Shown here: positions 1-37,740 of the stretch, in pieces | Layout: each line of letters begins with the position of its first letter | How positions within the stretch are numbered: the stretch's first letter is position 1 | IMG/VR virus record: IMGVR_UViG_3300032285_000371 | Span: 1 to 37,740 of that record | From: a virus | DNA length: 37,740 nt | Reading direction: 5' to 3' (one strand) | Made by a program: the position numbers and the translations under genes | Notes under the pieces: generated by a model | Seen by the model: the letters and a program-made list of their open reading frames with translations, nothing else | What the model was told of the DNA's origin: nothing | The model's database searches: none

Positions 1-347
1 GGGGGAGTAGCAAGTTTATTTGTCACAACTGTTGTGGCAGTATTTGCTAATTTAGTCCAATCAGATGCCTTAACTGTTGTACCGGCAGTAACACCTCGAT
101 AATCAGGAGGGAAAGTTGCATCAAGTGTAGGATCTGTTCCTGTCTGGTGCCATCTGCAACGCCATAAGTCTGTCCAAAGATTAGTATAATGAGCTAGAGT
201 CACTTTACCTCTAGAAGCAACTTGACTACTAGCAACTGATTGACCATATCCGCTATCACCGGATCCATTACCTAAAATAGTTCCAACACTGCTTTGGATA
301 TTATTATAATCCTGTGCGGTGATCTTTTGTCCTGTTGATATTGTCAT
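1..347 (-). CDS. Virion structural protein, N-terminal part (cut by window edge)
   Basis: The reading frame opens at an ATG on the minus strand (complement of 345-347) and runs off the left edge, giving 115 residues. The start is preceded by a purine-rich GGTATAGGTA, and the gene begins 14 bp after the stop of the upstream fibre gene, so it is the distal gene of the same late unit. The N-terminus reads MTISTGQKITAQDYNNIQSS, followed by a Gly/Ser-rich turn and a second segment with the same flavour (KVTLAHYTNLWTDLW, later VKASDWTKLAN). This 'ITAxDYNxIQ' type of start is familiar from T4-like cyanophage virion proteins of unknown function. I infer a tail or fibre-associated structural role from this and from its neighbours. 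No catalytic motif is visible and the C-terminal part is missing. Confidence 0.7.
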   Translation of the reverse strand, partial: MTISTGQKITAQDYNNIQSSVGTILGNGSGDSGYGQSVASSQVASRGKVTLAHYTNLWTDLWRCRWHQTGTDPTLDATFPPDYRGVTAGTTVKASDWTKLANTATTVVTNKLATP

Positions 348-1897: not shown

Positions 1898-1905
1898 TAT
1901 TTATG
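1898..1905 (-). promoter_or_regulatory. T4-type late promoter octamer CATAAATA
   Basis: The minus strand reads GCATAAATACTAGC here, one mismatch from the T4 late consensus TATAAATA. It lies in the 39-bp gap between two fibre genes, 21 nt before the ATG at 1876, with GAGG between them. The same motif at a similar distance occurs at three other gaps in the window. It is expected to be read by the gp55 sigma factor and would give a leader of about 15 nt. Confidence 0.75.
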
Positions 1906-6378: not shown

Positions 6379-6386
6379 TATTTATC
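6379..6386 (-). promoter_or_regulatory. T4-type late promoter octamer GATAAATA
   Basis: The minus strand reads AGATAAATACTAGATAAAGAGAG. The octamer has one mismatch to TATAAATA and shares the following CTAG with the 1898 site. It sits in the 55-bp gap downstream of the peptidase gene, 20 nt before the ATG at 6358, with AAAGAGAG as the ribosome site. No hairpin terminator for the upstream unit is visible in the gap, so readthrough is likely. Confidence 0.75.
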
Positions 6387-6413
6387 TGTGTTTATTATCT
6401 GCTAGTTTAATAT

Positions 6414-21900: not shown

Positions 21901-24900
21901 GATCCTAATAGAACATAAAATTGTGCTTGGAAAACTGTAGTAGTTGTGTGTCTAGCTAACGAACGATAATATTTTCCGTTATACTGAATTATCTTTCCGG
22001 CTGCATAGGTTTGCTGGCCTTCCCATAACTGAAAGCTTTCACTAATACCACCTACATTTACAGTTATACCTGATCCAACATAGCCGTAAGATTTAAAATA
22101 CGGTTGTGTTTTACTATAACCTTTGACTTCAAAACCATCAGTTAGCTTTGTAATAATAATACCGCTATAGGTTAATTTCTTAATGGCACTAGAACTGTTT
22201 AGAACTACTGAATAATTTTCAGGAGGTACAAACACACTTCCCTTGCTAACAGGAGTTCTGCTATCAAGTAAAAAGTTAAATTTTTCTTTGCTGGTAAATG
22301 CTCCAAGTCGATAGCTTAGTTGAGCATTGATATTATTAAGATCGTACTGATAAGAATTATAAGACTTTAGCGTATCGCTTAAGATATAGTCTACAATATA
22401 GTTAATAAGACCGGATGTTAGTGTAGATGATTTGCTAGAATATAAACTTGGTAAGACTACATCGTATGGACGAATTCTAAGATTAGTATCGGTATAAACA
22501 ATTTGTCCAGCTAGGTTTCTCGATATTCTTGATTTATCAAGAAACACGCCAAACGTTTGAGCAGGTCTTAATAGTAAGGCAGTAATTATTAAACTAAAAG
22601 AATAATGACTGCTTCGACGCCATGCGGCTTCAACAGGACTAATATCACCAAATACAAAATCTGCGTCAGTTGCTTGTGTAATTAATCCTTGTGCTACGCC
22701 AATTGAATAAGGATCTAAAATATTTCCTTGATCGTCTACCGGAATATGAGCAAGCAAGTATGGTCTTTTAAACTTTGTAATCACATAAGGAGCTACCGCT
22801 GGATCTTTTACTAGACCGGCAGCAATATCTTGCCACATTATTAAGTTATCTTTAGTGTAAGGTGCAGGACCGTATAGTCCCTCCCACCAAGTAGGCTGAC
22901 TAGTGAATCCTAACATCTCCCACGGTGCTAGATTTGGCTTATCTGTATCGTATAACCATCGATAGATACCTCTCCAGTATCCAGGAACTGGACGTCCGTC
23001 TGGTGCTGAATGCCCTTTATAATTATAGGTTAAAGGATTATTTCTATCATAGCTAAGAGGTTTAGTAAAATCTCTATCAATTAGGCTAGACCATTTATAA
23101 AAATTAGGAGCCAACACTTGATTAAATTCTGATAGACTATAATCATTAGATCTGTTGTAGCTAGGAATTAAGTCGTATAAATCAAATACTGATGCATCAT
23201 ATACAACTTTAATATTGTTATAGATTCGTTTTTCTAATTCAAGAATGATATTGTCTCGATAATCGCCATAGGCTAATATCTGACTGCCGTCGTGTCCTTG
23301 TATCATTAATCGCGGAGTAACTAGTGCAGTATCTGTATAAATCTTAGGTTCGTACTTAGGATAAATGCCTAGCTTTGACGGAGTTTGCGGGATATAACTT
23401 CCGCTAGTATTTTCATATTCTTTTATGGTAAGAGTATCACCCACTGCCTTGGTAGCAGTAACGATGACAAATCCCAACGGATCAAATGTATAATCTTTAC
23501 CGTATATTAATTGAGTGCCATTTAGGTAAACTAGAACTGCTTTAGTAGATAACGATGTAAGAGAAAATGTTGCAGACAACGGGTATGATGTAATACGGCT
23601 GTCAACTACCTTAACATTTCTAGTGATATTAGCACCAAATGCTACCATGTCGCTAGAATAGTATGGACCGGTCGGTACTTTATCTTGTACTAGTTTTTGT
23701 AAGATAAGATCTACTTGTACAGCAGGTGTATCATCGATGCCAAGTTTTGTTGCCGCAATTATAAAGTTTCTTTTAAAGGTAACGTAGTCTTCTCTAGCTT
23801 TTTCTAGCGCACGGATAACATTATTTGCTTCAATTGTAATATGATATAATCCAAGACCGAGCGGGCCACTATGTTGAACGAATTTAGTTCCATAAGCAGT
23901 GCTGTTAGGCAAGTCTCTTAGGTTGCCATCTCCTGGATACATTCCGGAAAACTCATTTAGGTTTTCAACTATCGAACTTACATGGTCAATAACTTCGCCC
24001 AATGTAAATTCTAAAATTTCATTATTAACAGGATTGTTTTGAAGGTTGACAGGTATTTCGTAATGGCCGTTAGCATTGATCGGCTGATTAGCATAGGCTT
24101 TTATTGTTACAACATCAGTCAGTGAAACTGCTGTTTTAAATTTAACTATCTTATAAATTGTACCATTGACAACAGTATAATTCTTAGGATCAACACGGAC
24201 TCCGTTTAAGTAAACTTTAACTGTTAGATCTGACAAATTATTAATGTCATCAAAGATATCTATATTAAAATTATTAGTTAATTGCGAATTTTTATAGATT
24301 CGCAATGCTGGTTGGACATTAGAAATCTCGCTAGTCTTCCAACCATTAACATATTGTCTATTGCCGGCAAACGTTGTCTTGATTAAAAATCCAATATTTG
24401 TTTGTAAAGTAGAAATTACTTCGCCGTTCAAATAGGTGAATGTATCATTTGCTAGACCAAATCTAAAAACTATGTCGCCAATATTATCAATATTCTTATG
24501 TGATATTGCAAATCCTAGATTAGAATCAACTGCTCCGGAACCTACTTTATAGGAAAATATTTCTGTTCCAAAGAATGTAGAGCCTGGATATTTTGTAAGG
24601 TCGGCGAACGAAACTTTGTCAATGTCAACAAGATCAAACGCAGGTGGTTGATTATTTTTATTTTTTTGCTGTCCTAATTTCCAAACCGTACCATTGTACC
24701 AGTACATTGAACTTTGATGTGATTTTCCGCTCTTGACTAAAACAGTATTGCCTTCTACTGGAGTAATAGTTGGGATTAAATGTATTTGTCTATTACCGGC
24801 AATTGTTACAAAGTCAACTGTAAAAATTTGACTTTTTACATAGATGTCGTTGTCTGCTAAAAATAGTACTCGATGGCCCTGTACAAGAGATACGCCGTCA

Positions 24901-26279
24901 ACAATATATCCTGTTGATCCTTCAATGGTACTCATTACGTCAGCAGTATACGTGTCAACTAGATCAACGTCGGCTATAGAGATATTACCAAAATTAAATA
25001 ATTTTAAATCAGCTTCAAATTCAATAATTGGTCGAATCGCACGAGCATCTTGATTTAATTCTGGGACTGTGTTATTCAGCGTTGCACTTTGAATAATAAC
25101 ATCCTTGTGGAACCAGCGGTTGAATCTACTCCAAGGATTACGATCTTGGCTTGCACGATTAATAACAATGTAATCTCGAACTGCGGCAAACCCAGATGCT
25201 TCGGCAAAAGGTTTTGTGTCAAATGGTTCTTCGTCGAACGGTAGATCTTCGGTTACTGTATAACTTGTTATTATTTCAAGGTCTGTTTCTGCGACTAACT
25301 GAATAGCTGTTCCGACACCCTCTACGTACCACTTGCCAGTTGCGTACTTTGCCGGTGCAACTGTTCCGCCAAATTCTAATTTCATACCGTTACTTAAAGT
25401 AACGCCATTAGTCATTGTGTATGACTTCTTTCCTAATATCTCTGTGCTAACATCTAGATATGAATTATCTTGAATATCAACAATATTAATTGTACCATTT
25501 ACGTCAGGATTAGCTTCGCTAACATAATATAAGATGTCGGGAGAATTAACAGGAACTGTAAATGTTAGTATACCCGATTCTATTTGATTATTTGTTAGCC
25601 CCGATGCTGGACTATAGATATCACCGGTATCAATACTTACTCGTGTTTTAATAGTAAACGGGTTACCGGGACTATTAATATCAAACTTATATGTTTGGCC
25701 TCTATATAATGTAATAGTAGGGTTAGGTGTTAGTCCGTCAGGAGTAAGCACATATTGATAATTGCCTAGTTCGTTTTGGAGAGAAACTGTGTAAGTACTA
25801 ACAATTTGTGTTGTTTGTCCGTATACTTTTATTACATCAGGTCCGTACGGTAACCAGTAATACTGATTAAAGTTTGCAAATTTATCCCAATCAATATGAG
25901 GATTCCAGCTGTAAAATTCTTGTTTATTAATTCTAGAATGATTAACAGTATTGGCGCCAAATACAGATAGTTGATTGATATAATCAATATAGTCTTTAAA
26001 ATAAGTTGTGTTGCCTAATGCGTCTTTAACTGTTAGACTAGGTTCAAGCTGATAATCCTGTCTTGATTTATCAGCCGCAGTAACAAACACATCTGAACCT
26101 GTGCTAGATTTAGAATTCTGTCTTCCTATAAACCCGTTTACTTTTTTAACAGTACCAGGCTGTATTAGTTGGTCAATTGTTGCCTGAATGAATTTTTTAT
26201 TAGAATCTGTTCTAAAAATTCTAGGTAACAGTTCTGACCCAGGACTGTTTGTAGAACCAGGTATAATATTATCAGCCAT
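9939..26279 (-). CDS. Giant baseplate/tail structural protein in gp7 position (5446 aa)
   Basis: One uninterrupted frame directly after gp6; the start overlaps the gp6 stop by 8 nt (ATGGCTGA). T4 gp7, in the same position, has about 1030 residues. Visible parts, approximate residues: N-terminal conserved segment (YINQLSVFGANTVNHSRINK, 100-120); YNGxYY sugar-binding-like motifs near 1420-1460, 1550-1585 and 1730-1757, and again at 5213-5320; FG-GAP propeller-like blades from about 2140 to 3300 (ALSPDKTWLAVGHPRAG, FGTSLIF..LFVGAEGY, FGHSLGV..LVIGAPG), interrupted by TGI-GM repeats and GSGY repeats; more GSGY repeats near 3730-3780 and 4095-4160; IDEVKPYRTKIREY near 4020; tandem DYxV..P beta-sandwich repeats around 4570-4800; and a RGTLGT segment near 5140. 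No separate gp8-gp11 genes are seen, so it may do their work as well (inference). Confidence 0.8.
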   Translation of the reverse strand: MADNIIPGSTNSPGSELLPRIFRTDSNKKFIQATIDQLIQPGTVKKVNGFIGRQNSKSSTGSDVFVTAADKSRQDYQLEPSLTVKDALGNTTYFKDYIDYINQLSVFGANTVNHSRINKQEFYSWNPHIDWDKFANFNQYYWLPYGPDVIKVYGQTTQIVSTYTVSLQNELGNYQYVLTPDGLTPNPTITLYRGQTYKFDINSPGNPFTIKTRVSIDTGDIYSPASGLTNNQIESGILTFTVPVNSPDILYYVSEANPDVNGTINIVDIQDNSYLDVSTEILGKKSYTMTNGVTLSNGMKLEFGGTVAPAKYATGKWYVEGVGTAIQLVAETDLEIITSYTVTEDLPFDEEPFDTKPFAEASGFAAVRDYIVINRASQDRNPWSRFNRWFHKDVIIQSATLNNTVPELNQDARAIRPIIEFEADLKLFNFGNISIADVDLVDTYTADVMSTIEGSTGYIVDGVSLVQGHRVLFLADNDIYVKSQIFTVDFVTIAGNRQIHLIPTITPVEGNTVLVKSGKSHQSSMYWYNGTVWKLGQQKNKNNQPPAFDLVDIDKVSFADLTKYPGSTFFGTEIFSYKVGSGAVDSNLGFAISHKNIDNIGDIVFRFGLANDTFTYLNGEVISTLQTNIGFLIKTTFAGNRQYVNGWKTSEISNVQPALRIYKNSQLTNNFNIDIFDDINNLSDLTVKVYLNGVRVDPKNYTVVNGTIYKIVKFKTAVSLTDVVTIKAYANQPINANGHYEIPVNLQNNPVNNEILEFTLGEVIDHVSSIVENLNEFSGMYPGDGNLRDLPNSTAYGTKFVQHSGPLGLGLYHITIEANNVIRALEKAREDYVTFKRNFIIAATKLGIDDTPAVQVDLILQKLVQDKVPTGPYYSSDMVAFGANITRNVKVVDSRITSYPLSATFSLTSLSTKAVLVYLNGTQLIYGKDYTFDPLGFVIVTATKAVGDTLTIKEYENTSGSYIPQTPSKLGIYPKYEPKIYTDTALVTPRLMIQGHDGSQILAYGDYRDNIILELEKRIYNNIKVVYDASVFDLYDLIPSYNRSNDYSLSEFNQVLAPNFYKWSSLIDRDFTKPLSYDRNNPLTYNYKGHSAPDGRPVPGYWRGIYRWLYDTDKPNLAPWEMLGFTSQPTWWEGLYGPAPYTKDNLIMWQDIAAGLVKDPAVAPYVITKFKRPYLLAHIPVDDQGNILDPYSIGVAQGLITQATDADFVFGDISPVEAAWRRSSHYSFSLIITALLLRPAQTFGVFLDKSRISRNLAGQIVYTDTNLRIRPYDVVLPSLYSSKSSTLTSGLINYIVDYILSDTLKSYNSYQYDLNNINAQLSYRLGAFTSKEKFNFLLDSRTPVSKGSVFVPPENYSVVLNSSSAIKKLTYSGIIITKLTDGFEVKGYSKTQPYFKSYGYVGSGITVNVGGISESFQLWEGQQTYAAGKIIQYNGKYYRSLARHTTTTVFQAQFYVLLGSLPIVGGTSAILRTSWDKNNLVTVPYGTKFYNIQSVVDFILGYGEWLKDEGFIFDSFNSTLQAVTNWETSAKEFLFWTTQNWSVGQNKWKDWLPNQDIPYNTIVRYNGDYYQAIQTVSASTIFDDAKYTKLDGLSTVGSAVLSLSPAADTITFNTTLAVVEDITSNFNPYEIFKVDGTPLEPRFINLYRKDNAVSYTTKTNDGIFGASFYLVQKEQVVLLDNSTLFNDTIYNPETGYRQERIKVSGYTSINWYGGFDVPGFIFDEAHITEWEPWKDYNIGELVKYGQFYLQADPTGNIVPGAETLDTTQWLKLSSKPSPKLIPNWTYKVAQFQDFYSLDSDNFDSDQQKVAQHLIGYQQRDYLNNIIQDPVSEFKFYQGMIREKGTKSVLSKLFDVLSSENKESITFYEEWALRVGEYGASKAYENIEFVLDESKFKSNPQGIELLDSLDPPYYDLTIRQLPTDIYLKPIGYNSSPWPLVKNYRPYLRSAGYVRPDEVKLTLYSLDSILTQDITGINEGDYIWVGFEGVSWNVYRFTDANYVVKDVTYSGTTLTITFDIDHVLTAGSYIGIKEVTGFAGFYKINSVSLNTITITTTLTNPPASPFTEQSRILIFLLQTQRARNTYDAQGNVKDYSIDIADSVFPRILKPRELLWTDDNGNGKWTVWENNPVYNSVEIKYAYPASQLDLGRTVALSEDGFLLLAGTSNGELLVYDKASNTSNWIQRETVTAPTVSKNDSFGGNLNTLDKLAEVIALSPDKTWLAVGHPRAGYASTHLVSNSGSYSWNIVNTYSTNDIVALENNFYQAISSVPANNPPQISATAKSQVVYSTVTDASVAAITSYYVFKTTLATSVSAGAQSLTVTSVSGIYVGINITGTNIPANTIVTNVNSLTNVITLNNTVGVILQSTILTFGDLVNTRAITVSSTTGIVVGMSVVGTGIASNTTVSLVDSINNIVILTLTSTGTPSGRMIFGANSAKFISTAEYQSASAVVAGWKIIAGNNLVNGTVITGRNDANRLVFFNNLTTGSIAGSIAFANAASRVTALAGSNTLTVTTPANIYAGQTLSTTAGIPEGTTVLSVVGNTVVISANTTAALTSVFVIFGQNHLVISSLTGQLSVNQLTTGSGLASLTAVAAYVGSNVFLSKNTLSTVNGPVIFSGGSTYWKAINYVPIDATGTNSTLAAQGAVSIYKKDLNNIFQLVDTIVSPSPSANEKFGTSLIFGTQILDDGTTSYNLFVGAEGYSNNTGKVYVLTYENFVQASASYNPSASSNTAVKQIVVDKPGSGYSTAPTVNIGTPNTSGSVPAKATSTIGVVAVTTPIVYSGAGYILGDILTISGGTYTAPAKLRVTQISGTGAIQSVLIYDTGIYSTAALTSNNVVTGGTGSGARFTVTFGVTAVTVTVPGSGYDLLTSPFVSFTSTSGTGAEAYALIGSVIGLSDTTGIVNGMVLKGTGFYSNQYVTQVVSATSVTTGVNNATAVTGIVGGLGNNYITVGSVTGLVVGMLAEGTGIASGATISSFLSGTTIVYLTKPNTGSVSGYGTFGRNAIRVDSLTGIAPGMTVTANGVADGSQVISANLIQVPATLSFLNIVVINQLTTGTVYGLGTFNYPNIKSGFVVINAAPDSTPNGLVFFTIPSWAYTSSLTAPASQAQFGHSLGVDRSSVQASNGQFLVIGAPGIQTASTTVAGAFNYYQYVSNAWILLSTTNGVYGFGTSVDMTTSGSYIAVGSPLVGSGEVSVYEYNPTSQLYDFLQNLTNISPEPVEKFGTSVKFVNNSTTLVVYSANADSFTTTTWSDDTVFDSGATNFRHYEYDSGRIDIYDNYNTKFIFSERLSNLVGANASYGKGFSVGTDNILVGAPRAITSSLVSGRIFEYLKTPNVYSWKSVHTELDKVDISKIKRAFIYDRKTSQVLSYLDVIDPLQGKIPGPADQEISYKSFYDPAVYNVGDSTVNVRAGMTWGDDQVGQLWWDLQTAKFIDGHDDNIIYRTSLWATIFPGASIDIYEWVKSKYSPVQWNNLADTEAGLAQGISGTSLYTTTETYSLVTKYDNVSNTSKNTYYFWVKNKTIAPTTGKRTLSASSVASLISNPRGEGYKYLALTGPNSFSLANIKPLLKHTDAVLSVEYWTVDNADTKNIHRQYALISNDINSYIPARIEEKWFDSLCGKDLTGKDVPDLSLPPKLRYGIEFRPRQSMFINRYEALKQVIEQVNRTLLTNQIVENRNLSALDSYEAEPSVQLGLYDGVKDYDTELTYINITSFVVPELIPVLTDGRITSVIILNSGSGYAHAPYISVAGTGQGAVLKSNINAKGSITSVTVVSPGEGYASVASTILSVRSYSVLVHSDTQAGNAWSIYSFDIASQVWSRTQTQNYDVRKYWTKVDWYATGYGQNTSPTHVVNTFTDLATISVNIGEVVKVKTNNKGEWTLLKKFANSSSVDYTQSYQVVGIQNGTIQFNSSLYKFTNTIYGYDGGLYDGTNFDLVASKELRIILNTIKNNLLVEELKTVYLDLFFYSIRYAYSEQAELDWVFKTGFVKAMHNIGSLDQPVTYQPNNLADFESYIDEVKPYRTKIREYISNFNKIESNEIMATDFDLPSTYTNNLFQTINTSIANGVISVDNPIVNTYPWKNWLDNVGYSVIDLKIVNGGSGYINEPQITISGTSGSGATARAFIANGQINRIVLLTNGKGYISAPTVTINGGVSSTGTPARIIAIIGDSKIRTTKINVKFDRTTQNYFITNLEQTETFTGTGSRVQYPLTWAPNVRLGTSSVTVDGVPVLRDNYKLSTVTSTAKGYHSYSGSITLDVAPAKNSIILVTYLKDSSILNATDRIQHFYNPENGQPGKDLSQLMTGIDYGGVIVSGIGFDVNTGWGSTPYWSDKWDSQDSTFNDFITQVSANTHSFTLPYTPASGTQLNVYYSQLFSESYTSDGVRLVYTFDPRDIVPTVTSAVSILLGNSHAVTGSSYASNKKGSNVITLVNVVGISVGDTITISPFVSGTLGLSVKVQQIIGANDVQIDQILYKDIGNGSTITFTRTLSVITTTDPFGKGVITLNTPLIFGTVLTISSYLKPVRIDDSIYGSLQVTNTNAVMRTITADGTTSTFTIPNTFTVGNGDQFIFRQTTSDGSIAPNEADYDTALTGGDLVYSTATGLSADDILVDGDGFVTPSTSPAPEEVVPGQVVDAVAIKIYDKPTSGSANIHVDPYIGDGVTRNYAISQTPNSAGAVIVRTAVGTSSTVLTAPDDYVVDYQNQQVVFTYPPALGTYVSITSIGFNGSNILEIDHFTGDGNTLEFITNAKYITPTTQAVYVNGVAQTVTIFETDDTYANPNRIGIRFLIAPAAQSLITYIIVAGSSQTFSVAKKERLVGNGTTDYNLQYAVGIGLPAEGSMIVRVDNTILRPPGVVYFTIKSNKYTYTIDSARYTPSSIPVQDVVVIAGNTTLNFNTDWKFVPNGISIVLTSAVAATYSGQQLKVSIASDAGYVYIPGTTPKIRFANTYDTGHTIEVISNYNHSILDIQATNRNITPGLTSSYTVDTAEFFAYKSLFNGLITLERPVINSSYVWVEQNGKLLNPDVDYALQSDMQSIKLATPPAVNDVFRILTFSSNILKSGIAYMQFKDMLNRTVFKRLNKLKQTELAVELKPTDTTITVKDASNFDAPNPAGNKPGIIEIKGERIEFFTLNGNVLGQLHRGTLGTGVGKIYRTGTVVQEIGASETIPYQDNFQTYKILSDGTNTVPLTFTPTNSGVTSWLNAAGYTFIGEFDPSYQYTSNNVVTFNNLYYLVSTAYTLTTTQTVYPSPSNTAYWTQQSQIPVGYGQSNDIDVFVGGYVTSDWATGVSYSVGMIVNYGSYQYKCLTAHTSTTFTANSANWQYFVINIRLKKSPYNVHNINIAPTSPEGDTTFDADFAVDGRTNSLRLTNTLAAGTQVTVIKRSGTDFDGKVTPNLLVDNGPIATFVKAVPGSWYTQISTLPTPAFDNNAFTFDNTGTDLTFDQG
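16380..19860 (-). repeat. FG-GAP propeller-like blades with inserted repeat arrays (within the giant gene)
   Basis: Protein-level repeats, approximate limits. The blades read ALSEDGFLLLAG and ALSPDKTWLAVGHPRAG (about 19860-19590), FGTSLIF...LFVGAEGY (about 18290-18150), FGHSLGV...LVIGAPG, FGTSVDM...IAVGSPLVG, FGTSVKF and FSVGTDNILVGAPR (about 16960-16330). Between them lie two arrays of a roughly 45-residue TGI-GM repeat (about 19380-18480 and 17590-17090) and a GSGY/GAGY repeat block (about 18075-17600). The blades resemble integrin-type FG-GAP units; that assignment is by pattern only. Confidence 0.6.
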
Positions 26280-29940: not shown

Positions 29941-29948
29941 TATTTATT
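29941..29948 (-). promoter_or_regulatory. T4-type late promoter octamer AATAAATA
   Basis: The minus strand reads CAAATAAATATTGATATAGGGA. The octamer differs from TATAAATA by one base. It lies in the 47-bp gap between gp25 and gp6, 18 nt before the gp6 ATG, with a GGGA ribosome site between. It would drive gp6, the giant gene, the repeat fibre and the peptidase. Confidence 0.72.
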
Positions 29949-29969
29949 TGAAACAATTATATGATACTT

Positions 29970-30413
29970 TTATTTCGCTAGCAGTCCGTTTGCCTGATCA
30001 AATCGCAGTTGCAGGGTCTGACTTAGGTTATAAGGCACATACGTTAGCTTACATTCCAGTTGGATTCCTGACTCATAGGGCGTTATGATAACCTGTTCTG
30101 CTCTAACTCGAGGATCATAATTTAAAATTTCTTGTACGTTTTGTAACATTAAATTTTTAAGTTGATCTGTTAATGGTTCAAACAGCAAATCCCATATAAT
30201 AGTACCAAACAAAGGTTGCATTAAGCGTTCGCCCTGTCTGGTGTAGAAATGATTTAAAATATCTTGTTTGATTAGCTGAAAGTCATAAAGAGCAAAATTT
30301 TCAGAATCTGGGCTTAGGGTACTAAACCCCTTGTACATTCTTGTCACATCTTGATCTGTATTTTTTGCTGTTCTTAAGGTAATTTTATCATAAAGGCTTG
30401 CGGGTGACGACAT
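29970..30413 (-). CDS. 25: Baseplate wedge protein gp25-like (147 aa)
   Basis: Matches the gp25/lysozyme-like wedge family (T4 gp25 has 132 residues). Visible are FALYDFQLIKQDILNHFYTR, then GERLMQPLFGT (61-71, the family's GERLM.P.FG signature), IWDLLFEP (73-80), and NYDPRVRAEQVIITPYESG towards the end. In contractile injection systems gp25 couples the wedge to the first sheath ring. Despite the historical name, lysozyme activity is not expected. The start overlaps the gp5 stop as TAATG. It is the last gene of the first late unit, before a 47-bp gap holding the gp6 promoter. Confidence 0.92.
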   Translation of the reverse strand: MSSPASLYDKITLRTAKNTDQDVTRMYKGFSTLSPDSENFALYDFQLIKQDILNHFYTRQGERLMQPLFGTIIWDLLFEPLTDQLKNLMLQNVQEILNYDPRVRAEQVIITPYESGIQLECKLTYVPYNLSQTLQLRFDQANGLLAK

Positions 30414-32020
30414 TATTCTGCTCCTCGTTCTTTTCTAAACGGATCTGTTGCGGTTGTGTATGTAAACCATTTGCTAGGTGTAGCGATCGACGCACTAACT
30501 TCTCTGTCAGTTTTGCTTGCAACAAAACTTGCAGGGTCTAAGTTTTCATGATGCGGATATGGTTCAAATGTGGGTACACGCTTCATTATGGACATGATGC
30601 TTGAATTTTGATCTAATGCATTTGTAGGATTAGCAAACATAGACAACGCTGTTGCTTTTGTAGCAGTAGCGGCTACTGCTGATACAGCGGCAGTTCCGCC
30701 TGTACCGGGTAAAGAATAATACCCTGAAGCGTTTTGTGTAAGTTTTGCTCCAGCTTTTAAATTAAGATCTGCACCAGCTGTTTGATTAATGTTAGCTGAA
30801 CTTTTTATATTAGTAGCACCGGTTGATGTAAAATTGTTTGAACCGGTAGTATTGATTTGCAGACTACCGGCAGTAGTAATAACTCCGCTTGCACCAACTA
30901 TCAAATTAAAATTAGTTTTTGTTTCAACTTGCACACGACCAGCAACTGCTTTCATATTAATGTTGCGGCCAGCTTCCATGTTTATATCGCGGTCAGCACG
31001 AATGTTCAAATCATTTTCTGTATGGATACTAATGCTATCTTTAGCATAGATATCAATCTTACCGTTGCTGGTTAATTCTATCCAGGTAGTTCCACCTGCA
31101 TTGCCAATGTAGATTAAATCTTCTGAATTATGCAATAATATTTGATGACCAGTACGTGTACGAATACGAACTAGTTCATTGTGCGGGATAGTAACATTTC
31201 CGCCTGTTTCATTTTGTGATACTGCGGCGTACTCGGGAGGTCCCGAGAAAGCAGGAGTCTTTCTCAGATATTTGTCATCACCGTCATCCATAACAAAGGT
31301 AGTTCCGCCTAGTCTGCTGACTGGAACATTTTCTGCCTGCTGTCCTTTCTTACCTACAGCACCAGTCTTGGCGCCGCTAGTTTTGTCAATTGGTCCAGGT
31401 GTAGATATACCAAACACAGAGCTTGGCAGTTCTCTCCTCGCACTAGATGTTGTTATTCCTCTAATATCATCTTTTAGCAATCCTTGAAGTTGGAGCACTG
31501 ACATAAAAGGATGCTCCGGTTTAGGCACCTTAGTAGGATCTGTGACTTTGCCGTTAACCTGTTTATTATATTCAGCAACTGGAACTCTAGGATATTTAGG
31601 ATTTGATTTTTCAACATTGAATTCAGTTGCGGCAATTCCGGGAACCATAAAATTCATAAAATCATCTGCTACACAACCTATCCAGAAACAGTCTTTAATA
31701 TTACCCTGTACAAATATAACCATGACTAGTGTGCCGACATCGGGCGGCACAAACCACATACCATAACTCTTTTGTGTATTGTTATAGTCGTCTGGATCTT
31801 TACCGATGTAGGCTTCGCCGGTTTGTCCACCAAAGGGTGTTAGCATTCTAGCATTGATAGTTCTGCCGGCATCACTATCGTTACCAACTGGGCGTAATAT
31901 CTCTACTTCGAGTGTGCCCATATAACTAGGCTCGAAGTGGCCTACTACTCGAGCAAGGAACGGACCTACTTCGCCTTTGCCCGACTCGGGCGGGGCATAG
32001 TCTTTGTATTCGTCACTCAT
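30413..32020 (-). CDS. 5: Baseplate hub spike gp5-like, without lysozyme domain (535 aa)
   Basis: Residues 17-130 form an OB-fold as in gp5/VgrG (GPFLARVVGHFEPSYMGTLE; WFVPPDVGTLVMVIFVQGN; CFWIGCV). Residues about 275-440 form the C-terminal triple-stranded beta-helix with short alternating repeats (IDIYAKDSISIHTENDLNI, RADRDINMEAGRNINMKA). Between them, about 130-275, is a loop-rich stretch with no T4-type lysozyme catalytic sequence; T4 gp5 carries one there. After the helix, RVPTFEPYPHHENLDPASF (481-499) is a conserved tail seen in cyanophage gp5. The protein should form the central membrane-piercing spike. TAATG overlaps join it to the hub gene upstream and gp25 downstream. The missing lysozyme leaves cell-wall opening to another protein. 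Confidence 0.85.
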   Translation of the reverse strand: MSDEYKDYAPPESGKGEVGPFLARVVGHFEPSYMGTLEVEILRPVGNDSDAGRTINARMLTPFGGQTGEAYIGKDPDDYNNTQKSYGMWFVPPDVGTLVMVIFVQGNIKDCFWIGCVADDFMNFMVPGIAATEFNVEKSNPKYPRVPVAEYNKQVNGKVTDPTKVPKPEHPFMSVLQLQGLLKDDIRGITTSSARRELPSSVFGISTPGPIDKTSGAKTGAVGKKGQQAENVPVSRLGGTTFVMDDGDDKYLRKTPAFSGPPEYAAVSQNETGGNVTIPHNELVRIRTRTGHQILLHNSEDLIYIGNAGGTTWIELTSNGKIDIYAKDSISIHTENDLNIRADRDINMEAGRNINMKAVAGRVQVETKTNFNLIVGASGVITTAGSLQINTTGSNNFTSTGATNIKSSANINQTAGADLNLKAGAKLTQNASGYYSLPGTGGTAAVSAVAATATKATALSMFANPTNALDQNSSIMSIMKRVPTFEPYPHHENLDPASFVASKTDREVSASIATPSKWFTYTTATDPFRKERGAE

Positions 32021-34182
32021 TATTTGCCGCCCTTACCAGAATTTTCAGGCTCTGCTTTATTACTTGTATTGGCCGTTTGAGCTGTAGTTGCCTTTTTAGT
32101 ATTTTCTTGATTAGGTCGTCTCATACCAATTAATGTTTGTGTAAACATGCCGCCCTTAAACATATTCTTAACTTCGACTACCCAATAGTATCCACTAAAT
32201 TTTGTAACTGGGGCTGTTTTTGTCCCTGGACCAAAATTATACAATCCCGTAGTTTGATTAATGTCTATAGGTGTTCTAAAATTAACTAGTATGTCTACTT
32301 GACCGTTTTGCCAGTTTACTGTTTGATCTTTATTAAGATTTTGTTTTTTAGTCGGAGCACTTGTATAATTTCCTAATCCACTTTGCACTAGGAAGTATGG
32401 ATCTCCAACAATATCCATGTTTAGTTCCATCTGTTCAAGGCCGCGTGTTATAGCTTCGTGGAATGACCTAGCGGCTCTAGTACTTTCATTTTCAGGGCCG
32501 CCGCCAAGGAAGTCTGTTTTAAAAAATGTTTTAGTCCAGTTTAAATAACTCGGTGTTGATTTAGTATCGGGCTTGTTGCCCTTGTCAACGTTCTTTTCAT
32601 CTAATGGTTTAGTCGGCGGTTTAGATTCGCCAGTTTGACTAGCTGTTACTACATCCTTACTGCGTCTTGAGTTGTCAGCTGCCATGTATTGTGCAAATGC
32701 TGTTGAAAACTGTATTTCAAATCTTAATACTTCAGTATTTTTTCCAGTATAGATGTAGTTGTATACTTTACAAACTTCATTAGATAGATTTTTTACGTCC
32801 GGCGGAGCAGTATTAGTTGCCATAGGAGCAGACGAAACGTTAACTGTATATGGTACTACTCTATAAACTATCAACTTGGGTTTTTGTCCTGTTGATGTCA
32901 TATTATCTGTAGTAGATTTATTAAAGACCTGCATGTCTATATTAAACCATCTACGCTGTCCTTTATCGTCTAATGCCTTTTCACTAAACGCACTGTCAAC
33001 ATATCCACTACCAATAATAATTTGCGTAATAGCGTTGAATACATCAGTGTCTTGTTTGAATTTAAATGAGCCTTCTTTAGGATCAATGGTTACCTGGCTT
33101 TGATCCCAAGTTTTAGTAACTGCATTATAAACTTTACCTTCGTTTTTAGATGCCGAGTCGCCCTTAAACACTTCACTAAATGCTAAAGGTGCGGCTCCAA
33201 GCTCGTTTACATCTGACGCTTTTTGCACTAACAATTTTGTTACATCACTTCTAGATGCGCCTATGAGTTCTTCAATTGCCGTGTCCGTATTTGCCGCAGG
33301 TGTAGTTGTCGCAGTAGCTTTATTTTCAGTAGTTGAATTTTTAGGAACTTCACCAGTGGCCACTTTTTCAGATTTAGGAAACAATATTACTATTTCGTCT
33401 GCTACTGCTATCACGTTTTGCTTTACAAGATCTTGGAATCGTTTATTCACTACAGTTTGCAAACTGTTAGGACCAGTTTGTAAGATCTCCTGAACTGTCT
33501 TACCACTAATACTATGATCATTCTTTAACTGCGAATAGTTAGACTTGGCTGCTTGTGCTGACCAGTTATAGGCAGTGCATCTGTAGGTGCTTCCTTGGGA
33601 TGATACATTAAAATTAATATCTGCAAATCTAAACGGAATATATCTAGTAGTGTTAGGAACACTAGACATCTTGCCATCTTCTTTTATACCTTTAAATTCT
33701 ATTGTTAAAAGAAAAGGTGCTTCTGTGTAAGCAGGATGCTTATACTTGTCGGCGGCGGCTTGAACACTTTGTAAAAATAAACCCATGCTGTATGGTTCTA
33801 ATATGTCAAACGAAATAGTAGAAACCATATTATTACGACCGTGGCGCTGACCGATAGTGTTTGTAATTTCTAAATTATCTATAAAAAAATCAAACTTTCC
33901 ATAAGCTGTTTTAACTCTATTCTTAGGATCCATGTTTGCAGTCTTGGCAATGATGTCATAGACTTTACCTTTCATATAGGTCTTGTCTGGAAAATTTAGA
34001 GCTTCATCTGGTATACAACTTATAGTAATAACATATGTGTAACTTGCATACGCGGCTAATGGATTAGGTAGTGGTAATTTGATCGATGGACTGCCTTGGA
34101 ACAGATTTCCAACTGCACCAGTTAGACCGGCAACTGATCCGGTAACTCCAATTGCATTACCTAAGCTATCTACTATTGACAT
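32020..34182 (-). CDS. Large baseplate hub protein (gp27 position, 720 aa)
   Basis: Lies directly upstream of the gp5-like spike, where a hub partner is expected, and is coupled to it by TAATG. Visible features: a Gly/Val-rich hydrophobic N-terminal 30 residues; a conserved-looking beta-rich domain of about 40-230 (YASYTYVITISCIPDEALNF, FFIDNLEITNTIG, ISFDILEPYSMGLFLQSVQA, RYIPFRFADINFNV); a low-complexity Thr/Ala/Asn linker around 285-310; a second domain with YRVVPYTVNVSSAPMATNT and IYTGKNTEVLRFEIQFSTA; another charged linker near 515-545 (KPPTKPLDEKNVDKGNKPD); and a C-terminal domain ending in GYYWVVEVKNMFKGGMFTQT and a Lys/Thr tail. T4 gp27 has only 391 residues. I place it as the hub protein by context and domain layout, not by a recognised signature. 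Confidence 0.6.
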   Translation of the reverse strand: MSIVDSLGNAIGVTGSVAGLTGAVGNLFQGSPSIKLPLPNPLAAYASYTYVITISCIPDEALNFPDKTYMKGKVYDIIAKTANMDPKNRVKTAYGKFDFFIDNLEITNTIGQRHGRNNMVSTISFDILEPYSMGLFLQSVQAAADKYKHPAYTEAPFLLTIEFKGIKEDGKMSSVPNTTRYIPFRFADINFNVSSQGSTYRCTAYNWSAQAAKSNYSQLKNDHSISGKTVQEILQTGPNSLQTVVNKRFQDLVKQNVIAVADEIVILFPKSEKVATGEVPKNSTTENKATATTTPAANTDTAIEELIGASRSDVTKLLVQKASDVNELGAAPLAFSEVFKGDSASKNEGKVYNAVTKTWDQSQVTIDPKEGSFKFKQDTDVFNAITQIIIGSGYVDSAFSEKALDDKGQRRWFNIDMQVFNKSTTDNMTSTGQKPKLIVYRVVPYTVNVSSAPMATNTAPPDVKNLSNEVCKVYNYIYTGKNTEVLRFEIQFSTAFAQYMAADNSRRSKDVVTASQTGESKPPTKPLDEKNVDKGNKPDTKSTPSYLNWTKTFFKTDFLGGGPENESTRAARSFHEAITRGLEQMELNMDIVGDPYFLVQSGLGNYTSAPTKKQNLNKDQTVNWQNGQVDILVNFRTPIDINQTTGLYNFGPGTKTAPVTKFSGYYWVVEVKNMFKGGMFTQTLIGMRRPNQENTKKATTAQTANTSNKAEPENSGKGGK

Positions 34183-34183
34183 A

Positions 34184-34486
34184 TTATAATCCTAACACTG
34201 TTGTTAAACTACTCTTTTTAGGAATATAGATTCTCTTACCTGGAACAAAATCAAAAATAGGATCTTGCAACACATTTAAATTTCTTTGTATAAACACCCA
34301 CCATAAACCTGCATCATCATAAAGGTCAAACGCTAGTAAGTCTGGACGATAGGTATATTGTGCTTCAATAGTGTAAAGAAAATCATCAGCCTCGGCGCTA
34401 ACTGGACGTATTTGCAATATGTCTAGATAATTTTCTGTTATTGGAGTCAGGTAGTAAGGACTATTGTTATTGTAGTTAGCAATCAT
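34184..34486 (-). CDS. 53: Small baseplate wedge protein gp53-like (100 aa)
   Basis: Short protein with the pattern YTYRPDLLAFDLYDDAGLWW, VFIQRNLNVLQDPIFDFVPG and KRIYIPK. It resembles the short LysM-like gp53 homologues found beside gp48 and gp5 in T4-like cyanophages; T4 gp53 itself is about twice as long. In T4, gp53 joins neighbouring wedges into the hexagonal baseplate. Its start overlaps the gp48-like stop (TAATG) and its stop lies one base before the hub gene ATG, so all three are translationally coupled. The assignment rests on the central motif and on gene order. Confidence 0.72.
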   Translation of the reverse strand: MIANYNNNSPYYLTPITENYLDILQIRPVSAEADDFLYTIEAQYTYRPDLLAFDLYDDAGLWWVFIQRNLNVLQDPIFDFVPGKRIYIPKKSSLTTVLGL

Positions 34487-35484
34487 TATAGGTATCCAAA
34501 TGAATTGTTTAAGTATCCGCCAGTGACAAATCTATCAAGACTAAATTTACGAGCACTGTCTCTACTGTATATTGGTTGTAGTGTTACAGTAAACTCACTC
34601 TTGAGAGGAACATATGCTCTGCCTCCCGGTGTTGAACCACCTAGACCAAATGTTCCTGCTAGACCGGCGACACTTCCTACTACTCCGGCAACATCACTTA
34701 CTGATCCGGCAACATCACTTAGGCCAGGCACTGCACTTCCTAGTGTATCAGCCAGTCCGCCAACACTATCAGCAATTCCTTCTATTGCCCCTGCGGCTGA
34801 TCCAACTACATCAACGCCGATGTAATCACAATCTTTAGGTAGATTCATTTGGAATGTGGTTACTACCACCGGAATATTTTTAAACACATACTGACCATAG
34901 CCGTTTAAAAAAACGATCGGTGGTGGATTGCCGGCCTTTGGATCAGATCCCGCAAACATTTTGGTTAAACTTCTTAAATAATGAACCGCGGCAATCCAGT
35001 ACAACGCTTGTGTTTGATCTTCAACGTTCATTGGCGCTTGGATTGTTATTTGTCCCGGCTCGCTGTTTTTAAATGTTGGGAAATTATAGTTAGTCTGTGT
35101 AATTGGCATGCTTTCATACTTGGCACTAGCACTAACTGATATCGACGGAGTATAGGGAAATATTAGACCGCCTGCATCTTTTAATGGTTTTAATACTGGA
35201 CTATGTTTAAAGGCTGACCAATTTGCAATGTTAAGTCTTACACGCCAATCATTATCATTAGTCCCGTCGCCTCCAAAACTGGCTATTGCGCCTTCTAAGT
35301 CGCCAATCGCCTCACCTGCCGCTGGCAAGTTTAAAGAACGAATTGCACCAACGGCATTAGTAGCACTACTAAGCGCACCAGCTAGTCGTCCAATAGAGCC
35401 AATAGCATTCTGTGCGGAACTAATTGCCCCTGCAGTTGCATTTATTGTTGAACGTACTCCTTGCCCAGTTGGTCTGTTAGCCAT
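34486..35484 (-). CDS. 48: Baseplate tail-tube cap gp48-like (332 aa)
   Basis: First gene of the leftward late block. The conserved-looking core is residues 79-225: DWRVRLNIANWSAFKHSPVL, GGLIFPYTPSISVSASAKY, YWIAAVHYLRSLTKMFAG, PPPIVFLNGYGQYVFKNIPV and a C-terminal YVPLKSEFTVTLQPIYSRD (291-309). This matches gp48-type tube-cap proteins of T4-like cyanophages; T4 gp48 has 364 residues. Two Ala/Gly/Ser-rich segments (20-50 and 237-283) look flexible and hydrophobic, but are not typical membrane helices. gp48 and gp54 sit on the hub and start tail-tube polymerisation. A late octamer at 35506-35513 and AGAGGG precede the ATG. gp54 is the main alternative; no second tube protein is in the window. 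Confidence 0.72.
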   Translation of the reverse strand: MANRPTGQGVRSTINATAGAISSAQNAIGSIGRLAGALSSATNAVGAIRSLNLPAAGEAIGDLEGAIASFGGDGTNDNDWRVRLNIANWSAFKHSPVLKPLKDAGGLIFPYTPSISVSASAKYESMPITQTNYNFPTFKNSEPGQITIQAPMNVEDQTQALYWIAAVHYLRSLTKMFAGSDPKAGNPPPIVFLNGYGQYVFKNIPVVVTTFQMNLPKDCDYIGVDVVGSAAGAIEGIADSVGGLADTLGSAVPGLSDVAGSVSDVAGVVGSVAGLAGTFGLGGSTPGGRAYVPLKSEFTVTLQPIYSRDSARKFSLDRFVTGGYLNNSFGYL

Positions 35485-35505
35485 ATTTTATCCCTCTTTG
35501 GCAAG

Positions 35506-35513
35506 TATTTATT
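35506..35513 (-). promoter_or_regulatory. T4-type late promoter octamer AATAAATA (tail operon)
   Basis: The minus strand reads CAAATAAATACTTGCCAAAGAGGG. The octamer ends 21 nt before the ATG of the gp48-like gene and is followed by the AGAGGG ribosome site. It shares base 35513 with the -35 box of the divergent sigma70-type promoter. Expected reader: host RNA polymerase carrying gp55. Confidence 0.78.
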
Positions 35514-35541
35514 TGACTTTATTAACCGCGTAGTTTATAAT
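35513..35541 (+). promoter_or_regulatory. Sigma70-type promoter of the gp55-gp47-gp46 unit
   Basis: TTGACT at 35513-35518 and TATAAT at 35536-35541, separated by 17 bp, which is near the bacterial sigma70 optimum. The start point should fall near 35548, and AGGA at 35552-35555 lies 8 nt before the gp55 ATG, so the leader is only about 16 nt. The host vegetative polymerase can read it without phage factors, consistent with early expression of the late sigma factor. Confidence 0.82.
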
Positions 35542-35563
35542 TTAACAAAATAGGATTGACACA

Positions 35564-36397
35564 ATGACAACAAAAGTAAATTATCTTAATAACAAGGATA
35601 TACTATCAGAAATACATAGATCCAAAAATACGTATTGTAGCTTTACCAATGCTGATTACCATCAATATGATATCATATTGCCTAATTTGGACAAGATAAA
35701 CATTAGAACTATAGCAGAAGCCAAGCGAAATAAAGCCAAACGACTAGGTGATCAAGAGTATGCCCGTAGAAAACTAGCAGGTGAAAAGGTTAAAATTGCC
35801 GATTGCGAAGTAGACTACAAGAAGATTACCAAACAAGAATTAATTTTTAGGGTTATGAGTTTTGATCATATTCCGCTGAATAACACACGTAAGAAGAACC
35901 CAAAGACCTTAGCAGATCACAGAGATAAGGTTAATTTTCCGCCATTCCAACATTGGAAATACAACGACACAGACGAATTAGAATGTGTAGGAAAAAGCCA
36001 CTGGAAAGGTGGTGTAGACAAGGGTAAGTTTAGTAAAGATCACGGACAAATTACACCTACTCTAGCTCGCATGATGATTAAACTGTGCGAAAGATATGCT
36101 ACAAGAGGTAACGTTCGCGGGTATACTTACAATGACGAAATGAAAGGTCAGGCTATTTTACAACTAACACAGATAGGACTACAGTTTGATGAAAGTAAAT
36201 CCGATAATCCGTTTGCGTACTTTACTGCCGCCGTTACTAATAGTTTTGTTCGTGTTATTAATATTGAGAAACGTAATCAAAATATTCGTGACGACATCCT
36301 AGAAATTAATGGTATGAACCCAAGTTACAGTAGAACTGGTGCTGGCGAACACGAAGCCGCAGTGAAACGATTTGAAGGAGAAACCCCTAGTGAGTAA
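35564..36397 (+). CDS. 55: Late-transcription sigma factor gp55-like, N-terminally extended (277 aa)
   Basis: The C-terminal part resembles T4 gp55, a minimal sigma factor that recognises TATAAATA late promoters: LARMMIKLCERYA (167-179), EMKGQAILQLTQIGLQFDES (192-211) and NPFAYFTAAVTNSFVRVINI followed by EKRNQNIRDDILE (215-247), a region-2-like core. T4 gp55 has 185 residues. Here about 160 extra residues precede the core: a basic helix (AEAKRNKAKRLGDQEYARRK, 51-70) and a conserved-looking LIFRVMSFDHIPL...NPKTLADHRDKVNFPPF segment (93-128) of unknown role. The C-terminus (AVKRFEGETPSE) lacks an obvious hydrophobic clamp-binding tail as described for T4 gp55. The start is set by AGGA 8 nt upstream. 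The four late octamers in this window are its likely targets. Confidence 0.85.
   Translation: MTTKVNYLNNKDILSEIHRSKNTYCSFTNADYHQYDIILPNLDKINIRTIAEAKRNKAKRLGDQEYARRKLAGEKVKIADCEVDYKKITKQELIFRVMSFDHIPLNNTRKKNPKTLADHRDKVNFPPFQHWKYNDTDELECVGKSHWKGGVDKGKFSKDHGQITPTLARMMIKLCERYATRGNVRGYTYNDEMKGQAILQLTQIGLQFDESKSDNPFAYFTAAVTNSFVRVINIEKRNQNIRDDILEINGMNPSYSRTGAGEHEAAVKRFEGETPSE
36377..36380 (+). promoter_or_regulatory. GGAG ribosome site deciding the GTG start at 36390
   Basis: GGAG inside the last codons of gp55 lies 9 nt before GTG at 36390. A longer frame opening at TTG 36372 would start upstream of this site, so GTG is preferred. Confidence 0.7.
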
Positions 36398-36554
36398 AAG
36401 CAATTATCTTAGCGTTGTAGAATCAGCGACACACAAAGTCATTATCAATAAAATGTTTTTCACTGCGCCTGCTATGAACAAATGGATTAAAGAAGAAGAT
36501 ATTTTAAACAAATATCCAAAGCCTACATATTACATTGTTAAGGAATGTTATTAA
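36390..36554 (+). CDS. Small unknown protein between gp55 and gp47 (54 aa)
   Basis: Starts at GTG, overlapping the gp55 end by 8 nt, with GGAG 9 nt upstream. The sequence runs MSKSNYLSVVESATHKVIIN, KMFFTAPAMNKWIKEEDILN, KYPKPTYYIVKECY. It is predicted to be a small alpha/beta protein: a beta strand, a helix around PAMNKWIKEED, and a final strand ending in Cys-Tyr. There is no signal peptide or membrane segment. Its TAA stop shares one base with the gp47 ATG (TAATG), so it is firmly within the gp55-gp47-gp46 unit. I do not recognise the family. A modulator of transcription or of the recombination nuclease would fit the context, but nothing in the sequence shows it. Confidence 0.7.
   Translation: MSKSNYLSVVESATHKVIINKMFFTAPAMNKWIKEEDILNKYPKPTYYIVKECY
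36540..36544 (+). promoter_or_regulatory. AAGGA ribosome site deciding the gp47 start at 36554
   Basis: AAGGA abuts the in-frame ATG at 36545 (no spacing) and is 9 nt from the ATG at 36554 and 15 nt from the ATG at 36560. The 36554 codon is therefore the likely start, and it also gives a TAATG overlap. Confidence 0.75.
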
Positions 36555-37564
36555 TGAATATGTTTAAGAAGATTGCTTGTTTTACAGACATACACTTTGG
36601 CTTAAAATCAAATAGCTCTGTACATAATCAAGATTGTGAAGATTTTGTAGACTGGTATATTGCAAAAGCCAAGGAGGAAGGCTGTGACACTGGAATTTTT
36701 ATGGGCGATTGGCATCACAATCGTAATAGTCTTAATATCACTACTATGGACTATAGCCTTAGGGCCTTGGAAAAGCTGGGACAAGCGTTTGATAATTTTT
36801 ACTTTTTTCCTGGTAACCATGATTTATATTATAAAGACAAACGGGATATTCACTCTGTGGAGTTTGGAAAATACATCCCAGGAGTTACCGTTGTTCACGA
36901 ACCTACTACTATTGGCAACGTATTATTGTGTCCCTGGTTGGTTGGAGAAGAGTGGAAGACAATAAACAAAAAGGGTGGCAAGTATGTGTTTGGTCATTTT
37001 GAATTACCTAAGTTTTTTATGAACGCAATGGTGCAGATGCCGGATCACGGCGAGCTACAAGTAGATGCATTCAAAGGATTTGAGTTAGGATTCAGCGGAC
37101 ACTTCCATAAACGTCAGCAAAATGAAAACATGATCTATATAGGCAATGCATTTCCGCACAACTATTCAGATGCATGGGACGATGAACGTGGTATGATGAT
37201 ATTAGAATGGGATGGTACTCCCGAATATCATAGTTGGCCAGGCCAACCTACCTTTAGAACAGTTACACTAAGCCGGTTAATTGACGAAGCCGACAAGATC
37301 ATACTGCCAAAACAGCATTTACGTGTTACATTAGACATTGATATTACCTACGAAGAAGCTAGTTTTATCAAAGAAAAGTTTATTGCAGACTACGATATCA
37401 GAGAACTTACATTAATTGCAGAGAAAAAAGCAGTTGAAATTAATACAGATATTGATATCCAAACGTTTGAGTCAGTAGATCAAATTGTGTCAAATCAACT
37501 TGTAAGTATTGAAAGCGACACGTATAATAAGAATACACTACTGGCCATTTATAACAGCCTATGA
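36554..37564 (+). CDS. 47: Recombination endonuclease subunit gp47 (SbcD/Mre11-like, 336 aa)
   Basis: Calcineurin-like metallophosphoesterase with the complete SbcD/Mre11 motif set. Numbered from ATG 36554: Asp12-Ile-His14 in FTDIHFG; Gly51-Asp52 with His54/His55 in GDWHHNR; Gly87-Asn-His-Asp90 in FFPGNHD; a GHFE motif (VFGHFELP); and GHFHKRQ. These residues bind two metal ions for exo/endonuclease action on DNA ends. With gp46 it forms the T4 gp46/47 complex, which resects ends for recombination-dependent replication and degrades host DNA. The length equals T4 gp47 (339). The last 4 nt overlap gp46 (ATGA), the usual coupling of the two subunits. Earlier ATG 36545 is possible but poorly spaced from the ribosome site. 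Confidence 0.95.
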   Translation: MNMFKKIACFTDIHFGLKSNSSVHNQDCEDFVDWYIAKAKEEGCDTGIFMGDWHHNRNSLNITTMDYSLRALEKLGQAFDNFYFFPGNHDLYYKDKRDIHSVEFGKYIPGVTVVHEPTTIGNVLLCPWLVGEEWKTINKKGGKYVFGHFELPKFFMNAMVQMPDHGELQVDAFKGFELGFSGHFHKRQQNENMIYIGNAFPHNYSDAWDDERGMMILEWDGTPEYHSWPGQPTFRTVTLSRLIDEADKIILPKQHLRVTLDIDITYEEASFIKEKFIADYDIRELTLIAEKKAVEINTDIDIQTFESVDQIVSNQLVSIESDTYNKNTLLAIYNSL

Positions 37565-37740
37565 CAATTAAAATAAAAGAATTAACTGTAAAAAACTTTA
37601 TGAGCGTGGGTAATCAAACCCAAGCTGTAAACTTTGCCAAGGAATCTTTAACACTAGTACTAGGTGAAAACTTAGATCAAGGTGGTGATGATAGTGGTTC
37701 GAGGAACGGAACTGGTAAGACTACCATTGTAAATGCATTA
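37561..37740 (+). CDS. 46: Recombination endonuclease subunit gp46 (SbcC/Rad50-like), N-terminal part
   Basis: Sixty codons, cut by the right edge. The N-terminus MTIKIKELTVKNFMSVGNQT matches the start of T4 gp46 (KNIMSVG). The Walker A loop NGTGKTT at 51-57 is preceded by an extended acidic/Gly-rich loop (VLGENLDQGGDDSGSR), longer than in T4 and like that of cyanophage gp46. The protein is an SMC-like ATPase that works with gp47 on DNA ends. The ATG overlaps the gp47 stop (ATGA). The coiled coil and the Walker B and signature motifs lie beyond the window. Confidence 0.93.
   Translation, partial: MTIKIKELTVKNFMSVGNQTQAVNFAKESLTLVLGENLDQGGDDSGSRNGTGKTTIVNAL

Follow-up and report, generated by a model that had tools for sequence, protein, structure and literature searches.

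Late transcription in phage T4 relies on a gp55-family sigma factor, and the structural genes are controlled by promoters with an 8-bp TATA-type box located one turn upstream of the start. Overlapping divergent promoters are known from phage lambda, where PRM and PR lie back-to-back, interfere with each other and form a developmental switch. According to the available portions of two T4 accounts, T4 late promoters have no -35 or other upstream element (PMC2988020, PMC7892883). For phage CBB, the accessible sections of the genome paper describe TGAAACG as the -35 of a second promoter class that includes the gp55 promoter, and an ATAAATA motif before structural genes; an overlap of the gp55 promoter with the octamer is not mentioned in these sections (PMC5259590). 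A search of titles and abstract openings, with subscription papers and preprints outside its scope, returned no published description of interleaved gp55 and tail promoters.

Here we analyze a stretch of 37,740 nt, referred to as the window, which corresponds to positions 1-37,740 of virus record IMGVR_UViG_3300032285_000371 (IMG/VR). The source is a T4-related jumbo phage belonging to a large group of uncultured giant phages. With some reservation we favor the reading that its gp55 upstream region is a bidirectional early/late control region, in which two interleaved promoters would exclude each other and provide negative feedback on gp55.

The intergenic region between gp55 and the tail operon

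The region of 79 bp (35485-35563) is bounded exactly by the start codons of the first tail gene and gp55, as read directly from the sequence, and contains two promoters and two ribosome sites (Table 1). To the right lie gp55, a gp47-like and a gp46-like gene; the leftward operon encodes baseplate and tail proteins. An earlier sequence-only reading had proposed that the rightward gene encodes a gp55-type late sigma factor, which was confirmed by a profile match to phrog_12791 ('sigma factor for late transcription', E 1.1e-72). Residues 146-258 also match phrog_234. Two other ORFs of the tail operon stand out. The product of ORF 6414-8018 carries pro-kumamolisin activation (PF09286, 2.4e-15) and subtilase (PF00082, 1.2e-11) domains and is a serine protease of a type that is normally secreted, here encoded among phage tail genes. 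ORF 9939-26279 is a single reading frame of 5,446 aa.

Table 1. Features of the gp55/tail-operon region and further late promoters of the window
Feature	Position	Strand	Basis or remark
Late octamer AATAAATA of baseplate/tail operon	35506-35513	-	+ strand reads TATTTATT
-35 hexamer TTGACT of gp55 promoter	35513-35518	+	Sequence, promoter scan; first base common with octamer
Upstream element of late promoter, about -22 to -38 of predicted late start	35522-35538	-	Weight matrix from gp55 cores
-10 hexamer TATAAT of gp55 promoter	35536-35541	+	Sequence, promoter scan
Shine-Dalgarno AGGA of gp55	35552-35555	+	Sequence
Shine-Dalgarno GAGGG of first tail gene	35492-35496	-	Sequence
gp55-type late sigma factor, 277 aa	35564-36397	+	phrog_12791, PHROG profile
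gp47-like (SbcD-like) nuclease, downstream of gp55	36545-37564	+	
Virion structural protein, first gene of divergent operon	34486-35484	-	phrog_12050
Remaining first stretch of baseplate operon: gp53-like, structural protein, gp5-like hub, gp25-like	29970-34486	-	
Second late octamer AATAAATA, between gp25-like and gp6-like genes	29941-29948	-	5,565 bp from first
Degenerate copy of upstream element, second promoter	29957-29973	-	Score -2.5, below threshold; strong in relatives
Third late octamer GATAAATA	6379-6386	-	TGCTA-type variant upstream element at 6395-6411
Fourth late octamer CATAAATA	1898-1905	-	Without clear upstream element

The rightward promoter (TTGACT-17-TATAAT, 35513-35541, + strand) is of the sigma70 type with 11 of 12 matches, and is the sole site with at least 11 of 12 in the whole window on either strand. 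Scanning of 30000-37740 gave 33 sites with at least 9 matches where 23.6 (sd 4.7) were expected; the gp55 promoter scored best. The combination TTGAC-17..19-TATAAT, present at 41 sites in a 372-kb record as compared to 9 for the reversed control, is a predicted promoter class of these phages.

The leftward octamer agrees with that of T4 (TATAAATA) at 7 of 8 positions and precedes the baseplate and tail genes, in line with the earlier claim of a late promoter for the tail operon. Where T4 has TATAAATA, the window clade has NATAAATA or RCTAAATA. When both strands of the 37.7-kb window were searched, NATAAATA occurred four times, each time on the - strand in an intergenic position 18-21 nt upstream of a structural gene start. 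The 8-bp TATA-type box before structural genes and the encoded gp55-family sigma factor are as in T4-type late promoters. We nevertheless class the tail-operon promoters as a variant of that type, because they carry a conserved upstream element at a fixed distance, which T4-type promoters do not have. A search for the gp45 clamp (PF02916) matched none of 4 records, yet none of 14 controls matched either.

From the positions of the boxes, an early start is predicted near 35548 and a late start near 35500, which places the octamer at -13 to -6 and the two starts 48 bp apart. The promoter elements are interleaved within 36 bp and point in opposite directions. The sequence-only reading had described two promoters sharing one base. 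Base 35513 is indeed common to both, being the last base of the octamer on the + strand and the first on the late strand, but the description understated the overlap. The early spacer itself is the upstream element of the late promoter, and this element also overlaps the first three bases of the -10 box.

Since sigma70 promoters can be helped by A/T-rich DNA upstream of the -35 box, the octamer might be a mere UP-like extension of the gp55 promoter, with tail transcription starting elsewhere. We regard this as highly improbable in view of the location of all four NATAAATA sites before late genes. Furthermore, the unit of octamer plus element recurs without an early promoter, and the sister clade keeps the octamer at 34 bp from the -35 box.

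Conservation of the register and the element in the spacer

To compare related loci, IMG/VR viral contigs were searched with gp55 and the best 80 loci, with 75-88% protein identity in the best segment, were kept. Octamer, -35 and -10 occurred in the same register without indels in 78 of these; the other two were cut off by the contig end. The octamer was TATTTA[T/G]T in all 78 intact loci (T in 42, G in 36), and the -35 box began on its last base, reading TTGAC in 76 loci and TTGAT and TTGCT in one each. At exactly 17 bp further the -10 box was TATAAT in 71 loci, TATACT in 3, TATTAT in 3 and TATAGT in 1. The 17-bp spacer, which falls in the range of 16-18 bp expected for a sigma70-type promoter, was present in 78 of 78 intact loci. 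A hexamer match alone could be due to chance; the conservation across gp55 loci decides in favor of a promoter, as had been proposed from the window alone. The distance from the octamer to the tail ATG varied between 16 and 26 nt and that from the -10 box to the gp55 ATG between 10 and 26 nt (76 loci), whereas the length from octamer to -10 was constant.

Information content was computed from 79 rows including the window, reduced to 67 after removal of near-identical loci. The mean values per column were 1.88 bits for the octamer, 1.81 for the -35 box, 1.91 for the -10 box and 1.39 for the spacer element, with 0.70 and 0.36 bits in the flanks as compared to 0.91 bits at third codon positions of a conserved gp55 block. 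A blind scan of viral contigs with the pattern TATTTAKTTGAC-N18-TATAAT produced at least 120 matches. Among the 120 matches listed, 97 were directly upstream of gp55; a further 5 shared the spacer but lay at contig ends, and 18 were elsewhere. The register is partly inherited because the gp55 loci are of common descent.

RCTAAATA is apparently tolerated as a late octamer besides NATAAATA (G001, G003, G004). For the 36 loci with TATTTAGT, we rejected the idea that ACTAAATA is a defective octamer, since RCTAAATA occurs 10-35 nt before ORF starts. At this distance ACTAAATA was found in 4 of 11 cases in G001, 1 of 5 in G003 and 3 of 4 in G004 (the latter two counts include the sites facing gp55), and TCTAAATA and CCTAAATA in none in these three. 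Only 4 of 76 loci have a late octamer directed at gp55 within 600 nt, which suggests that gp55 is mostly without its own late promoter nearby (none obvious in 72 of 76 loci). In clade loci L023, L054, L066 and L070 an octamer faces gp55 from 72-80 nt upstream.

The spacer of the gp55 promoter has a conserved consensus, TTAANTGCGTAGTTTAT, which is unusual for a sigma70 promoter. Inspection by eye of 10 records revealed a TGCGTAGTTTATAAT-type spacer only at gp55 sites and at none of the other TTGAC..TATAAT sites. A weight matrix made from the gp55 cores alone was applied, with a threshold of 6, to 122 unique late promoters predicted elsewhere in the same phages. The score exceeded 6 at 26 promoters, with the element at the identical distance from the octamer in 23. 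Among 140 in-gene control octamers 7 scored high, all of which were gp55 cores misassigned by the ORF caller, leaving 0 of 133. The Fisher p value for 26/122 against 0/133 is 1e-9, which is overstated because the 26 are mostly one promoter position in different phages and hence non-independent. The other 96 promoters were without the element, suggesting that it marks tail-operon promoters and not late promoters generally.

Most of the 26 sites are the second promoter of the tail operon. At least one octamer-plus-element site was found in 186 records, of which 33 have two or more. Thirty-two second sites share the strand of the gp55 site and are 5.3-9.7 kb away from it, a distance that many of the 186 records are too short to reach; two further second sites are far off and on the opposite strand. 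When only the 35 unique records with at least 7 kb on the tail side were considered, a second element site was present in 22 and absent in 13. Four of the latter are chance pattern matches for which no adjoining gp55 was found (L147, L159, L173, L178), and in five, including the window, the octamer is accompanied by a weaker or variant form of the element.

The second tail promoter has no -35 and -10 boxes, with 0-4 of 6 matches at the corresponding places. The explanation of spacer conservation as a sigma70 feature (extended -10) was rejected on this ground. TTGAC and the AA of TATAAT are specific to the gp55 site, and core positions T29, A31 and T32 serve both promoters. The recurrence of the element at the same octamer distance without an early promoter argues that it belongs to a bipartite late promoter composed of octamer and element, over which the early promoter appears to be laid.

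Alternatively, the element could serve as operator for a distinct phage regulator, which would activate the tail promoters while repressing the early promoter of gp55; feedback would then run via this regulator instead of via occupancy by gp55-polymerase. The element is common only to tail-operon promoters and has a fixed octamer distance. An extra reader is also expected from T4 late promoters, described without an upstream element in the available portions of the T4 accounts (PMC2988020, PMC7892883). On the other hand, no candidate regulator was identified, and a large extra domain of gp55 itself could be the reader. Although some loci have a seemingly palindromic spacer (AAACTGCGTAGTTT), it was rejected as a symmetric operator: in a dyad-symmetry test with 102 unique cores, covariation did not exceed that expected from independence. 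We consider a separate regulator possible but doubtful.

The gp55 protein of the window is larger than that of T4 (277 versus 185 aa) and similar to it at residues 147-237 only, which align to T4 gp55 in the PDB (7d7c_F, E 3.7e-5). Its layout comprises a sigma region-2-like part (about 146-258) and an extra N-terminal domain (about 1-145). In the predicted model (pLDDT 81) this domain is confident, and it is kept as far as Atu_ph07. A fold search against the PDB gave no match at E <= 0.001; weak fold matches to sigma region 2 agree with the C-terminal part. That the N-terminal domain reads the upstream element is our guess. The full combination, in which a T4-type late promoter of octamer and -35-region element, perhaps read by this domain, has an early promoter woven in, making the late sigma factor a direct repressor of its own gene at the same time as it starts the baseplate operon, is put forward tentatively.

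Promoter spacing in related phages

The divergent order of tail operon and gp55 is kept in Pseudomonas phage PA5oct, Phosso, Agrobacterium phage Atu_ph07, Klebsiella phage RaK2, Vibrio phage 2.275.O, CBB and XaC1, and apparently in SCTP-2, where the genes adjoining gp55 are unannotated. In Phosso (L083) and Atu_ph07 (L084), gp55 and the tail operon are separated by an inserted nucleotidyltransferase gene. By contrast, in ACG-2014b, the sole cyanophage checked, gp55 is part of a codirectional run and not opposite the tail operon. A search for relatives with Atu_ph07 gp55 retrieved only itself.

CBB, RaK2 and XaC1 show the same arrangement of a structural protein and gp53 diverging from gp55-gp47-gp46, with 2, 1 and 3 bp, respectively, between the octamer and a weak -35-like box. 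Unlike in the window, octamer and -35 have no common base and the gp55 promoter is of the second class. In Atu_ph07 the distance is -1, a shared base recognized by eye; the scan preferred another, weak promoter, and no convincing -10 follows the shared -35. The distance is 10-12 bp in SCTP-2 and the Vibrio phage and 71 bp in Phosso.

PA5oct and its environmental relatives also have an octamer facing the tail operon and a TTGAC-17 promoter facing gp55, but their promoters are separated, by 21 bp in PA5oct and mostly by 34 bp in the relatives, whereas those of the window clade are interleaved. Octamer-34-TTGAC was found in 30 of 47 scanned environmental PA5oct-like loci; the remainder differ or are unreadable. 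The arrangement, whose conservation the sequence-only reading had asked to be checked, is strictly conserved within the clade but not in its sister clade. As the latter keeps the divergent genes with promoters mostly 34 bp apart, phages of this kind can do without the exact overlap.

The environmental PA5oct-like loci have a conserved TAAA..TTTTAT block upstream of the octamer. Between octamer and -35, loci L087-L114 contain the conserved blocks ATAAA and TTTTAT, separated by roughly one helical turn, and a GAAA immediately in front of TTGAC. The block spacing is rigid in most of these loci, and the blocks are a possible counterpart of the upstream element. In a PA5oct-like subclade (L117, L118, L120, L121, L122) gp55 is also faced by a late octamer GATAAATA, located some 96-110 nt ahead of the matched start, which would mean positive instead of negative feedback there.

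In a gp55 tree the window clade is monophyletic (100/100) and sister to the PA5oct-like clade (86/84); Atu_ph07/Phosso and the RaK2 group fall outside both. The tree shows overlap or abutment at three separate positions and separation at others, and either may be ancestral.

This distribution bears on the explanation that both promoters are real and individually selected, with the overlap reflecting passive compaction in a tight inherited intergenic region without regulatory meaning, and with gp55 declining through general early shut-off. The crowding of two promoters and two ribosome sites into 79 bp would fit such compaction, as would the absence of overlap in the PA5oct-like relatives and a single origin of the register, which the monophyly of the clade allows. 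However, the late promoter is already long, and the -35 and -10 boxes are superimposed on it instead of placed alongside; overlap or abutment also occurs outside the clade (with the reservations about -35 and -10 boxes given above), and the spacing is rigid in the separated clade too (34 bp in 30 of 47 loci). We judge passive compaction rather unlikely.

Predicted exclusion of the two promoters

The elements, their register and conservation, and the association of the spacer element with late promoters are direct observations. From these we infer the start sites, the occlusion and resulting exclusion, the feedback and the timing in the control region that we favor. Early in infection, host polymerase of the sigma70 type would transcribe rightward to produce gp55 and then gp47 and gp46. 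The leftward late promoter, with its octamer and element, would start the baseplate/tail operon. Since the octamer adjoins the early -35, the early spacer is occupied by the late element and the far end of this element runs into the early -10, the polymerase binding sites overlap and two polymerases could hardly bind together.

When gp55, with whatever reads the upstream element, loads polymerase in the leftward direction, the whole early promoter would be covered, since a gp55-polymerase on the late promoter is predicted to reach past -40 and over the early -35 and -10. In T4 the footprint of the activated late complex extended 13 bp further upstream, according to the part of the account available (PMC2988020). 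Conversely, sigma70 polymerase at gp55 would cover the octamer. Mutual exclusion is probably the expected consequence of this tight overlap. Because gp55 makes the late complex, the occupancy of the early promoter by that complex should shut off gp55 synthesis and give negative feedback, as the sequence-only reading had also suggested. The extent of occlusion would be a matter of relative occupancy, and some other mechanism may silence early promoters late in infection. With promoters 34 or 21 bp apart, exclusion by overlap is not required in the sister clade and PA5oct.

The arrangement differs from lambda PRM/PR in that competition would take place between two polymerase holoenzymes that carry different sigma factors, one of them the product of the competing gene. 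We know of no repressor for the switch in the window, unlike for lambda PRM/PR.

If correct, the proposed mechanism would constitute a minimal and protein-economical early-to-late switch, in which late and host sigma factors compete on 36 bp for the gene of the former. The conserved upstream element is at variance with the textbook description of T4-type late promoters without a -35 element, and the extra domain of gp55 provides a testable candidate for its reader. The 78 intact natural variants, together with a sister clade in which the promoters are spaced apart, allow a direct comparison.
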